A DNA stretch of 36,617 bases from Verrucomicrobiota bacterium. Lineage in GTDB: Bacteria; Verrucomicrobiota; Verrucomicrobiia; Verrucomicrobiales; Akkermansiaceae. Below are positions 5,823 to 19,289 of this stretch, piece after piece (position 1 is the stretch's first letter; each line of letters starts with the position of its first letter). Location: positions 1 to 36,617 of the forward strand of contig JAURPJ010000028.1 of assembly GCA_030835305.1 (NCBI GenBank), given 5' to 3'. The notes below the pieces were generated by a model. It was not told the DNA's origin and did no database searches. It worked only from the letters and a program-made list of their open reading frames with translations. Position numbers and translations under genes: made by a program.

Positions 5823-7496
5823 CTAGGTATATTTCAAAACCTCTTCGATCGTGGTCCGTCCTTCGTAAATGCAACGAAGACCGTCTTCCCGGAGAGTGGT
5901 CATGCCAAGCTCAATCGCTTTTTGCTTGATGACAACCGCAGGAGCCCTGTCGATGATCAGTTCACGAATCGGATCAGTGACGTTCAAGAGTTCGTAAAGA
6001 CCGGCACGCCCCTTGTAGCCGGAATCGCCACAAGTCTTGCAGCCCTTACCGGTATAGAAGCTCTTGTCTCCGAGTTCGTGGGGAGCCACTCCAAGTTGAG
6101 TCAGAATAGCCTCACTGGGCTCATAAGGCGCCTTGCAATCCTTACAAATGGTCCGCAGGAGTCGTTGAGCCAAAATACCTTCCAGCGAAGCGGCCACCAG
6201 GAAGGGTTGCGTTCCCATATCAACCAAGCGAGTCACCGCACCAGCAGCGTCGTTGGTGTGAAGAGTGGAAAGAACAAGGTGACCGGTCAGCGAGGCCTGA
6301 ATGGCAATTTTAGCGGTATCGAGGTCACGCATCTCCCCCACCAGGATCTTATCGGGGTCCTGACGAAGGAAGGCGCGCAACACCCTCTCGAAAGTCATCC
6401 CGATGGCGTCGTTGACCGGAACCTGAATGATTCCGTCCACATCGTATTCCACCGGATCCTCCGCCGTCAAAAGTTTGGTATCAATCTGGTTGATTTCGCG
6501 GAGAGCCGCATAAAGCGTCGTCGTTTTTCCGGCACCGGTAGGCCCGGTCACGATAAAAATCCCGTTCGGCATCCGGATGGTATCATGAATGTATTCATGA
6601 ATGTGCTGGGGAAGCCCAAGGTTATCGAGATTGAGATTCACCGAGTTTCGGTCCAAAACCCGCAGCACGACACTCTCACCGTATTGAGTCGGGAGTGACG
6701 AAACTCGCATATCAACAGACTGATCACCAACCTGCTTCACGATACGCCCATCCTGTGGAATCCGGCGCTCGGCAATATTCATGTTCGCCATCACCTTAAC
6801 CCGCGAAATGATGGGCAGAGCCAGATGAACCGGCGGCGGGGCCATCTCGTAGAGAGCACCATCAACGCGATAGCGGATCTTAAATTCGGTCTCAAAGGGC
6901 TCGAAGTGAATGTCAGAAGCTTTTTCCTTAATCGCCTGATAAAGAACGAGATCTACGTAGCGCATTATGGGGGCCGAGTTCGCCTCATCTTCCATCTCAG
7001 CTTCGCCCCCTTTGAAGCTCAGGCCACCATCAAGCTGCCCGAGAATATCATCCATGGCCTTCTCCTCTCCCCCGTAGAGCTCGTTGATCTTTTGCTCAAC
7101 AAGGAAGTCGGCACCCACGACCAAAGTGAGTTCATGGCCAACAGCGAAGCGAAGATCTTCAAGGATTTGTGGATTAAGAGGATCCGTCAAGGCGACCGAA
7201 ATATTGCCGTCATTATAGGCGACCGGGAGGGCACCGTGGAGTCGGGCCATCCCCGCAGGCACCAGCGAAAGCAGAGCTTCGGGTGGCTCAAATTCGCTGA
7301 GATCCACGAATTCCACCCCGAGTTCCTGAGCAATGATTGGCCAGACGTCGTCACGCGAGCTGATGACCTGGTAATCGGCAAGAATTTCAGCAGCTTCTTT
7401 TCCACTGTTTTCGATTTCCGAGAGAACATCGGCTTTGAGAGCACCATCGATCATGCTTCTGCTGACAAAAAGGTCGAGGATCTGATTGTTATCCAT
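5823..7496 (-). CDS. PilB/GspE-type assembly ATPase, second copy
   Basis: 557-residue cytoplasmic hexameric ATPase driving pilus or pseudopilus extension. Domains: an MshE/T2SSE N-terminal domain (about 1-145), N2 and catalytic cores. Walker A is GPTGAGKTTT at 318-327; the Asp box and Walker B include LLTAEDPVEY and KILVGEMRD; the His box contains LTGHLVLSTLHTNDA. Two CxxC pairs (CKDC near 459, CKTC near 488) form the zinc module expected of PilB/GspE. It starts 39 bases after the stop of the first ATPase gene, and both share about the same architecture, so they look like an old tandem duplication. PilT is excluded by the N-terminal domain and the zinc module. Confidence 0.95.
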   Translation of the reverse strand: MDNNQILDLFVSRSMIDGALKADVLSEIENSGKEAAEILADYQVISSRDDVWPIIAQELGVEFVDLSEFEPPEALLSLVPAGMARLHGALPVAYNDGNISVALTDPLNPQILEDLRFAVGHELTLVVGADFLVEQKINELYGGEEKAMDDILGQLDGGLSFKGGEAEMEDEANSAPIMRYVDLVLYQAIKEKASDIHFEPFETEFKIRYRVDGALYEMAPPPVHLALPIISRVKVMANMNIAERRIPQDGRIVKQVGDQSVDMRVSSLPTQYGESVVLRVLDRNSVNLNLDNLGLPQHIHEYIHDTIRMPNGIFIVTGPTGAGKTTTLYAALREINQIDTKLLTAEDPVEYDVDGIIQVPVNDAIGMTFERVLRAFLRQDPDKILVGEMRDLDTAKIAIQASLTGHLVLSTLHTNDAAGAVTRLVDMGTQPFLVAASLEGILAQRLLRTICKDCKAPYEPSEAILTQLGVAPHELGDKSFYTGKGCKTCGDSGYKGRAGLYELLNVTDPIRELIIDRAPAVVIKQKAIELGMTTLREDGLRCIYEGRTTIEEVLKYT

Positions 7497-17373: not shown

Positions 17374-17583
17374 AACCCTAGCGAGGGTTTACGAAGGGAA
17401 AAAACCGGGAAAAAACGCTTTCGCCCCAAAGCCCAGAACGGCGAATTCTACTTTGTCCTCAAAGTAGGAAACGACCAGATCATCGGACAGTCCCGGCAAT
17501 ACAAGACTGAATCCGGGCGGGACAATGGCATTTCGTCGGTTGGGATGAATTATGGTAGCGACACCAAAGACCTCACTGCTTAG
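17374..17583 (+). pseudogene. Remnant of a DUF1508/YegP-like protein
   Basis: The 340-base gap between the methyltransferase and sodN genes holds a 69-codon open stretch from the TAG at 17371 to the TAG at 17581. Its last 50 codons read as one YegP-type repeat: NGEFYFVLKVGNDQIIGQSR, then YKTESGRDNGISSV, ending DLTA, the usual end of these small proteins. There is no ATG, GTG or TTG in frame. Most relatives have two tandem repeats starting with a Met-x-x-F/Y strand, so the first repeat and the start are gone. The segment before NGEFYF (RREKTGKKRFRPKAQ) does not look like the normal beginning. The rest of the gap (17584-17680) shows only a small GGTTG-CAC-CAACC hairpin. Confidence 0.7.
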
Positions 17584-17680: not shown

Positions 17681-18133
17681 ATGAAAAAATCAACTCTAGT
17701 ATTCTGCGCACTTTTCTTCCTCGCTCCCGCTACGATCTCAGCCCACTGCCAGATCCCCTGTGGCATCTATAATGATGACAATGTCATTGAGTCCATGCAC
17801 ACCGACTTCGAGACCATTGAAAAAGCATCAAAACAGATCATCGAACTCTCCAAAGACCCATCCAAAAACGCTCACCAGTTGACCCGTTGGATCACCAACA
17901 AGGAGTCTCACGCTCAGGCGATTCAGGAGAAAGTCCTGAACTACTTCCTCGCTCAGCGCCTCAAGCTCGCCGAAGCAGAATCCGACAAGGAAACCTACCT
18001 CGCCAAACTCACTCTTTGCCACAAAGTCATCGTCACCGCGATGAAATGCAAACAGTCGACCGATGACAAGAATGTCGCTGCGCTCCACGAACTCATGCAC
18101 GACTTCGAGAAGCATTTTGGCACCAAGAAGTAG
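17681..18133 (+). CDS. sodN: Nickel superoxide dismutase with Sec signal peptide
   Basis: Disproportionates superoxide to oxygen and hydrogen peroxide. The 150-residue precursor begins MKKSTLVFCALFFLAPATISA, a clear Sec signal, and the next residues are HCQIPCGIY, matching the Ni-hook signature HCxxPCGxY in which the free N-terminal His, two Cys and the backbone bind nickel. Cleavage by signal peptidase after Ala21 would directly expose His1. The mature 129 residues are close to the 117 of Streptomyces NiSOD and have the expected helical bundle pattern. In Streptomyces-like systems a dedicated protease (SodX) makes the cut; no such gene is next door. The next gene, 16 bases on, is a di-heme peroxidase. 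Confidence 0.93.
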   Translation: MKKSTLVFCALFFLAPATISAHCQIPCGIYNDDNVIESMHTDFETIEKASKQIIELSKDPSKNAHQLTRWITNKESHAQAIQEKVLNYFLAQRLKLAEAESDKETYLAKLTLCHKVIVTAMKCKQSTDDKNVAALHELMHDFEKHFGTKK

Positions 18134-18149
18134 TCACCTTTCACCCAAG

Positions 18150-19289
18150 ATGCTTGCTCGGATTTTTCTCTACCTTTCACTTGCATCCTTCAGTTTCTCC
18201 CAAGCCACGCCCGATCTCGCTGAGATCGGGCGTCTTGTTTTCACGGATCCCACACTCTCGAACCCACCCGGCCAGTCGTGTCTGTCATGTCACCAATCTG
18301 ACCACGCATTTGCGGACCCCAGACGCGTTTCTCCCGGCGCCAACCCTGCTCTCTCCGGCAAGCGAAACGCCCCGTCGCTGATGTATGCGGCGCTCATCCC
18401 ACCCTTCGCATACGAAGATATTTTGCTCCCCGACGGAACCGAAATCTTCGCCTGGGAAGGAGGCCTTTTTCAGGACGGCCGGGCCAAGGACCTCTTCGCG
18501 CAAGTAAGCCAACCCTTCTTTGAAGCCCATGAAATGAATCTCCAAAACAAAGCCGAACTCGCCCAACGAATCCGCCAATCTAGATATAAGGACAGATTCC
18601 CACCAGAAACTCTCAATAACGACGGTCCACTCAACTTCCTCGTCTATCGCGCTCTGGTTGAGTTTCTAAAATCCCCTACCTTCCGACCCTTCGATTCTCC
18701 CTTCGACCGATACCAGGCTGGAGAAAAGGACGCCCTTTCCCTATCACAAAAACGAGGACTCGATATCTATAAAAACTCCGGCCACTGCGCTGACTGTCAC
18801 TTCCTCGAACCTCAAAACTGGAATCAACCACTCCTCTCTGACTTCGGCTATGACAATCTTGGAGCCCCGGCCATCGGCAAGAAAGACCCCGGCCTCTTCG
18901 CTGTCACCGGAGATCCTGACGACCTCGGAAAATTTCGAGCACCAAGCCTTCGCAACGTCGAAATCACTGCACCTTATCTTCACAACGGCTCGATCAAAAC
19001 CCTGCGCGAGGTCCTGGAATTCTACAACAAACGCGACCTCGAACCAGAGCGCTGGGGCGTCACCGACTATCCCGAAACCGTCAACCACGACGACCTCGGA
19101 AACCTCGGCCTCAGCGACGATGAAATCACCGACCTCCTCAACTTCCTTTACGCTTTTACCGACCATTGCCTGAAGAATAAAACTTCAACTTTCCCAATCC
19201 CTCCCAAAAACACCACACCAACGGAAAGCATCAAACTCAACTTTCCCGACTACACCCACCGCCTCGATTCTAACTTTCACAAAGAGTGA
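18150..19289 (+). CDS. Di-heme cytochrome c peroxidase (MauG/CcpA family), exported
   Basis: 379 residues from the ATG at 18150, with a signal peptide (MLARIFLYLSLASFSFS, cut before QATPD). Two heme c sites are seen: CLSCH near residue 50 (SCLSCHQSDHAFAD) and CADCH near 212 (GHCADCHFLEP). Family landmarks include FWDGRA-like LFQDGRAKDLFAQ, NAPSL, KFRAPSLRNVEITAPYLHNG and a late DLLNFLYAFTD. It reduces hydrogen peroxide to water using electrons from c-type cytochromes in the periplasm. It is next to sodN, so peroxide made by the dismutase can be removed on the spot. MauG-type enzymes of the same family have other roles, so the peroxidase activity is inferred from family and context. Confidence 0.92.
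   Translation: MLARIFLYLSLASFSFSQATPDLAEIGRLVFTDPTLSNPPGQSCLSCHQSDHAFADPRRVSPGANPALSGKRNAPSLMYAALIPPFAYEDILLPDGTEIFAWEGGLFQDGRAKDLFAQVSQPFFEAHEMNLQNKAELAQRIRQSRYKDRFPPETLNNDGPLNFLVYRALVEFLKSPTFRPFDSPFDRYQAGEKDALSLSQKRGLDIYKNSGHCADCHFLEPQNWNQPLLSDFGYDNLGAPAIGKKDPGLFAVTGDPDDLGKFRAPSLRNVEITAPYLHNGSIKTLREVLEFYNKRDLEPERWGVTDYPETVNHDDLGNLGLSDDEITDLLNFLYAFTDHCLKNKTSTFPIPPKNTTPTESIKLNFPDYTHRLDSNFHKE

Follow-up and report, generated by a model that had tools for sequence, protein, structure and literature searches.

The window, i.e. the whole 36,617-nt stretch of Akkermansiaceae DNA analysed here, contains a gene for a nickel superoxide dismutase (NiSOD), sodN, and, beginning 16 nt after its stop codon on the same (+) strand, a gene for a di-heme c-type protein. 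Both products have signal-like starts, and coordinates and translations agree with the preliminary description of this gene pair. The features referred to below are:

17681..18133, + strand: sodN, encoding a predicted exported NiSOD precursor of 150 aa (PF09055, 104.5 bits; AlphaFold2 and Foldseek fold matches)
17681..17743, + strand: predicted Sec-type signal peptide of 21 aa, ending in ...TISA (sequence; leader pattern of 121 phylum sodN)
17744..17770, + strand: nickel hook HCQIPCGIY, the N-terminus if cleaved there (H22, C23, P26 and C27 invariant)
18150..19289, + strand: gene for a 379-aa di-heme c-type protein, CCP_MauG family (PF03150, 104.5 bits; best PDB matches MauG)
18150..18206, + strand: first 19 aa of the di-heme protein, signal-like and ending in SQA (sequence; hydrophobic start in six aligned linked orthologues)
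18207..18243, + strand: terminator-like hairpin followed by a T-rich tail, covering codons 20-28 of the di-heme gene and the bases next to them (12-bp perfect stem and 3-nt loop at 18207-18233)
18279..18293, + strand: first heme-binding motif, CLSCH (translation)
18786..18800, + strand: second heme-binding motif, CADCH (translation)
19023..19025, + strand: Tyr292, aligned with the Tyr of the MauG FYNK segment (MauG alignment)

The NiSOD precursor and its di-heme neighbour

The sodN frame runs from an ATG at 17681 to a stop at 18133. Its product matches the Pfam family Sod_Ni (PF09055) at E 7.5e-30 and well above the cut-off of 25, and scores 33.9 with the NCBIfam sodN model (TIGR02753) against an equivalog cut-off of 90, so that it is divergent from the latter. 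Residues 1-21 of the precursor (MKKSTLVFCALFFLAPATISA) are followed by His22, which opens HCQIPCGIY. H22, C23, P26 and C27 are invariant in two NiSOD alignments (31 and 53 sequences), and H22, C23 and C27 would correspond to the nickel ligands His1, Cys2 and Cys6 once the leader is removed, a cleavage that we infer. Since sequence and profile searches of the PDB performed weakly (no match with the single window NiSOD as query; NiSOD chains at E 0.03-0.26, mixed with unrelated matches, with a NiSOD profile), fold comparison was used. The 15 best PDB matches of the AlphaFold2 model (mean pLDDT 88.2) in Foldseek were all NiSOD chains, with TM-scores of 0.74-0.80 by target, a probability of 1.00 and E-values of 0.008-0.11, none of which reaches 0.001; as modelled, the window protein has the NiSOD fold. 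The closest named relatives among the matches listed are metagenome-assembled genomes of Akkermansiaceae and other Verrucomicrobiales. A short DUF1508 frame (17383-17583) lies between a SpoU methylase gene and sodN.

The likely start of the di-heme gene is the ATG at 18150, with the open frame extending further upstream into sodN, and its stop is at 19289. A signal-like start (MLARIFLYLSLASFSFSQA) and two CxxCH motifs are what a classical cytochrome c peroxidase would bring along. The top PDB match, however, is MauG (E 8.1e-38), and the MbnH-type model of NCBIfam scores higher (148.8 bits; cut-off 362.85) than its MauG model (83.9 bits; cut-off 443.85), both far under their curated cut-offs. 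The MauG alignment places a Tyr of the window protein at the position of the Tyr that ligates the six-coordinate heme of MauG (residue 294 in MauG, as counted from the printed alignment); in classical peroxidases this heme has a Met ligand. Both the Tyr-His ligation of this heme in MauG and the Met-versus-Tyr rule are described in the available text of PMC6405878. Judged from its best matches, the neighbour is closer to MauG and MbnH than to classical peroxidases, and "peroxidase", as in the preliminary description, would be a provisional label. The position of the inter-heme Trp of MauG (Trp93) is occupied by Gln, His or Tyr in six aligned orthologues.

These features bear on another possibility, in which the di-heme protein would be a maturation enzyme that, like MauG and MbnH, carries out the oxidation of a residue in a protein and has no connection with superoxide defence. 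We regard this reading as tentative: the best family match, the best PDB match and the ligand Tyr speak for it, whereas the subthreshold NCBIfam scores and the substituted inter-heme Trp do not. According to the same text (PMC6405878), BthA, which has Ser in place of the inter-heme Trp, turns H2O2 into water; as this peroxide-reducing enzyme also does without that Trp, the activity of the window protein is not readable from its sequence. Given its likeness to MauG and MbnH, the Tyr at the ligand position and the missing Trp, it is a guess that the neighbour removes peroxide with electrons from the respiratory chain.

Homologues of the di-heme protein, linked to sodN or not, occur in 26 of the 27 genus genomes, and the linked copy is therefore one of several. 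The window genome itself encodes an about 56% identical paralogue on another contig (G000:C127; L273:3797-5979). This paralogue begins before the preceding xylose-isomerase-like TIM-barrel frame has ended; the overlap, an arrangement also present at two further loci (L274 and L275), suggests coupling.

A leader directly before the nickel hook, and the search for SodX

The preliminary description had proposed that NiSOD is exported and that ordinary signal peptidase creates its catalytic N-terminus, and the layout of the gene in other genomes bears this out. sodN was present in 69/145 genomes of the family and in 62/387 genomes of a phylum sample. Reading 69 family and 55 phylum loci, two of which (G285 and G275) are cut before the motif, yielded 122 motif-bearing sodN genes, where signal calls were based on a hydrophobic leader and on the residues at -3 and -1. 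In 121 of them a hydrophobic leader stands directly before the His of HCxxPC, with Ala (112), Gly (7), Ser (1) or Pro (1) at -1 and, in 118 leaders, a Lys or Arg within the first eight residues. The sole exception (L098; G138:C188, about 5937-6323) is a ubiquitin-NiSOD fusion with RLRGG directly before HCQVPC, found in a binned genome of the same genus. Because such fusions are known from algae, as stated in the accessible portion of PMC6332867, the contig that carries it is probably an algal one that entered the bin.

The same layout was seen in all 79 readable loci of named relatives, taken as the best 80 of at least 556 (L213 was unreadable), with Ala, Ser or Gly at -1 in 77; the others have Pro (L261) and Phe (L264), so that, together with the Pro of the phylum set (L178), three leaders break the small-residue rule. 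These best 80 of at least 556 confirmed relatives are not a neutral set, as the query was built from signal-peptide NiSODs, and the search stopped short of the Streptomyces-type branch. Their record titles name Bacteroidetes, Desulfobacterales, Planctomycetota, Calditrichaeota and Latescibacterota, besides others. The cultured Rubritalea marina DSM 17716 (L207) is one of those with a signal-peptide sodN, and the sodN of Ilyobacter polytropus likewise has the leader before the hook. Thus, the signal-peptide layout is not special to the window, but the rule in the sampled phylum and among the nearest relatives. Besides, some exported NiSODs carry His-rich C-terminal tails (L037, L128, L131, L137 and others), perhaps for nickel binding; at least four His within the last 20 residues are found in 24 of the 122 proteins, at least two of which have no real tail.

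The maturation protease SodX, whose gene had been described as not adjacent to sodN, was indeed not found there: the TIGR02754 (sodX) profile gave no match at E<=0.001 in the window genome, and no S26 motif was found within 2.5 kb of the window sodN. The adjacent sodX protease gene that marks the SodN/SodX subtype is hence missing at this locus, and an ordinary S26 signal peptidase is present in the genome. The result extends to relatives, with none of 58 sodN-bearing genomes searched (out of 124) holding a sodX above the TIGR02754 cut-off. Weak matches occurred in 19 of the 58, with a top score of 31.9 bits (G394), but also in 4 of 14 control genomes. As a positive control, Novosphingobium sp. 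RL4 has sodN followed directly by a gene for a SodX-like S26 protein, which itself scores 43.7 bits, under the cut-off of 63.25. Since this cut-off misses a likely true sodX, its absence elsewhere rests on the weak-match searches and on adjacency. The 2.5-kb surroundings of 203 sodN genes were scanned for the motif G.SM.P[TS], a scan blind to any SodX lacking that motif or lying beyond a contig end; it picked up the Novosphingobium control and otherwise gave four matches, by eye none S26-like.

The leader of the Novosphingobium sodN is less hydrophobic (best nine-residue mean 0.69, as compared to at least 1.74 and at least 1.77 in two sets of exported NiSODs) and ends in AQA before HCDIPC. On the megaplasmid of this strain (L278:3238-4809), sodN and the SodX-like gene are preceded by a frame, HupE-like by eye, whose signal-like start ends before HPGHEH.

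Linkage to the di-heme gene and a hairpin in its codons

Within the genus, 24 of 27 genomes contain sodN. The adjoining di-heme gene is intact in eight of these 24 (G000, G008, G049, G079, G086, G102, G497 and G500), the sodN genes of the seven linked genomes other than that of the window being 69-97% identical to the window sodN. Four more show a decayed adjacency, the linked gene being truncated in G094 and G143, where roughly 80 codons from its start are left, broken in G499 and, in G057, visible only as a trace of roughly a dozen codons. Two genomes were scored as unlinked with no di-heme match placed on the sodN contig (G498 and G502); in G134 a different, 1062-aa frame with two CxxCH motifs adjoins sodN, and in G121, where sodN was not found, a 3' fragment of the di-heme gene sits at a contig end. 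None of 50 other family and 55 other phylum loci has a gene with two CxxCH motifs beside sodN, nine of these 105 having less than 1.3 kb of sequence after sodN. No conserved sodN neighbour stood out across the family, where clusters differ by genus. The sodN tree (25 rows) has few supported forks, its labels cluster no better than in shuffles, and it neither favours nor rejects a single gain of the linkage followed by losses. The conserved NiSOD-peroxidase cassette of the preliminary description thus contracts to an adjacency confined to part of one genus: the di-heme gene is a local neighbour linked within the genus, and no obligatory partner of NiSOD.

A terminator scan revealed a hairpin within the di-heme reading frame, ACGCCCGATCTC-GCT-GAGATCGGGCGT followed by CTTGTTTTCA, which begins with codon 20, immediately behind the predicted cleavage site. 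Its 12-bp stem with 8 G/C and the 6 T in 10 bases give it the GC-rich stem and T-run of an intrinsic terminator. Terminator-like sites as such are not clearly enriched in the region (5, as compared to 3.1 with an sd of 1.9 in shuffles) and the T-tract is only moderately T-rich in the intact linked genes; it is stem length alone that stands out, this stem being the longest in the region and in the whole window.

A stem of 12-13 bp, with up to two G-U pairs, occurs at the same place in 10/10 loci examined (eight intact, two truncated), with a shifted register in the more diverged copy of G079. Not one of 400 synonymous codon shuffles matched the stem length in any of the eight genes, and pairwise synonymous differences amount to 10/163 (0.061) in codons 20-28 vs 3057/7666 (0.399) in codons 20-379, the lowest value among 345 nine-codon windows. 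Protein-level conservation alone is ruled out as the cause of the hairpin by these shuffles and synonymous-site rates. Pair cells are kept at 98.3%, a level reached by 9/500 shuffles; covariation is weak because the hairpin sequence hardly varies, with one pair changed on both sides (88/500 shuffles reach this).

Allowing two mismatches, the hairpin was found in 11 of the 27 genus genomes, each time at one place just after sodN (reversed controls, 0), and, besides the diverged G079 copy, not in the other 15. Its stem continues into a longer T-tract where the gene is broken (GGGCGTTTTATTTTT in G499) or gone (GGGCGTTTTTTTT in G057, with mismatches in the stem); the truncated genes of G094 and G143 keep the hairpin with a T-tract that is no better. 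In three genomes without the linked gene (G021, G031 and G130), sodN is followed after 16 nt by another, different terminator-like hairpin, and no stem of at least 8 bp was found at the start of five unlinked di-heme homologues. Among 518 ATG-started ORFs of family loci, a filter for a stem of at least 11 bp and at least 6 T in the next 10 bases was passed only by linked di-heme genes (those of the window, L076, L080 and L089) and by L054, probably a spurious frame beside sodN; the linked genes of L078 and L095 fall outside this filter. Rfam gave no match at gathering score near the sodN and di-heme genes, and viral contigs no exact match to the hairpin.

By its sequence features and conservation, the hairpin is probably the transcription terminator of sodN, and its position within the di-heme frame would argue against simple co-transcription of the two genes. 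This weighs on the reading put forward initially, namely a single operon whose two exported enzymes take superoxide to water with respiratory electrons. The 16-nt gap on one strand, the paired signal-like starts, the intact linkage in eight genomes and the peroxide reduction by some Tyr-ligated relatives such as BthA (PMC6405878, in the text available) fit such an operon, but the linkage is restricted and partly decayed, a terminator-like hairpin sits within the second gene, whose product matches MauG and an MbnH-type model best and is one of several homologues, and we therefore deem the operon unlikely. That the hairpin instead serves the di-heme gene, by slowing ribosomes for export or as a DNA operator rather than as a terminator, is improbable: its exact start at codon 20 of the window gene and a near-perfect palindrome suited to a DNA-binding dimer are outweighed by its persistence where the gene has been truncated, disrupted or lost, by the longer T-tract that follows it in G499 and G057, and by its absence from the five unlinked homologues.

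Proposed account and relation to known systems

No Cu/Zn SOD was found in the 27 genus genomes. An Fe/Mn SOD is present in 21 of them, including that of the window, where its frame (L277) starts without an evident signal peptide. Five genomes have sodN with neither Fe/Mn nor Cu/Zn SOD found (G049, G094, G126, G497 and G500; drafts 85-93% complete), and the exported NiSOD may be their sole SOD. In the phylum sample, sodN (62) and sodC (16) do not overlap among 387 genomes; with P 0.058 by chance, mutual exclusion is only suggestive. The exported NiSOD probably acts as a periplasmic SOD, a role held elsewhere by Cu/Zn SOD.

Taken together, the sequences themselves, the pattern of their signals, the distribution of the genes, the searches that gave no sodX and the conservation of the hairpin, all of them observed, make it fairly likely that four elements combine here: Sec export, signal peptidase I maturation without SodX, a non-obligatory di-heme partner and termination at a hairpin with read-through; within this account, location, activity, site of nickel loading, termination and read-through control are inferred. 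The bacterium, a marine member of the Akkermansia family, seems to export a NiSOD whose active end would come from ordinary removal of a signal peptide. Sec would export the precursor in unfolded form, signal peptidase I would remove the leader directly before His1, and the releasing cut would thereby also make the nickel ligand. No SodX would be needed, and nickel would be bound outside the cytoplasm; for such an enzyme, having two thiols in oxidising surroundings makes metal loading problematic. NiSOD would then serve in the periplasm, where we would place both proteins, beside an Fe/Mn SOD without evident signal peptide. The sodN transcript would most likely end at the hairpin in codons 20-28 of the di-heme gene, and the di-heme protein would be made only from read-through transcripts. 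To be exported, the di-heme protein has to be translated from 18150 onwards and thus across the hairpin; ribosomes translating the di-heme start may therefore keep the hairpin from forming and increase read-through.

A possible, though rather speculative, extension is that the sodN terminator doubles as di-heme coding sequence and acts as a translation-controlled attenuator. Ribosomes starting 57 nt upstream would hold the hairpin open, yielding di-heme enzyme in proportion to its own translation and NiSOD in excess; after gene loss, the same sequence would remain as a plain sodN terminator. That ribosomes are able to block terminator hairpins (PMC5021804) and that internal terminators set gene ratios in clostridial ABC importers (PMC9045158) is reported in the accessible parts of these papers.

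If the preferred account holds, its implications reach beyond the locus. A signal-peptide NiSOD matured by general signal peptidase would be the form across the sampled phylum and the nearest relatives from many phyla, and SodX-dependent maturation, the textbook route, may represent just one branch. Export of NiSOD bears on the site of nickel insertion and on envelope protection where lineages lack Cu/Zn SOD. The conserved hairpin, kept after decay of its neighbour, would offer a compact natural case for read-through control and, lying in coding sequence, for the way in which a regulatory RNA constrains protein-coding sequence.

Among the closest known systems is the NiSOD type with SodN and SodX, which we take to be the Streptomyces-type. 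It shares the Pfam family, the fold and the HCxxPCxxY hook with the window protein, which is 15-20% identical to solved NiSOD chains and differs in having a signal peptide and no detectable sodX. The open-access literature searched yielded no survey of NiSOD export, and neither a di-heme gene linked to sodN nor the hairpin was found described there. The NiSOD of Roseiconus lacunae (WP_230780104.1), likened here by its description, has a signal peptide and an N-terminal His as in the window; the 2025 paper on it (PMC12537917) used this combination as the premise of a search, and its available text surveys neither sodX nor sodC nor neighbouring genes. In algal fusions, as far as the accessible portion of PMC6332867 describes them, the NiSOD domain also stands behind a removable leader protein, which is ubiquitin instead of a signal peptide. 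The di-heme protein shares the CCP_MauG family, two CxxCH motifs and the ligand Tyr with MauG, MbnH and BthA; it departs from MauG at the inter-heme Trp, as does BthA in its own way (PMC6405878, available text), and a Pfam scan of the window neighbours gave no mau genes. Clostridial ABC importer terminators, in the text available of PMC9045158, likewise combine a long GC-rich stem with a weaker U-tract, yet they sit between genes, whereas the window hairpin lies inside the reading frame of the second gene. A NiSOD signal peptide with an N-terminal His behind it is thus already in print, and the hairpin within a neighbour's codons is new as far as the open-access literature searched shows.
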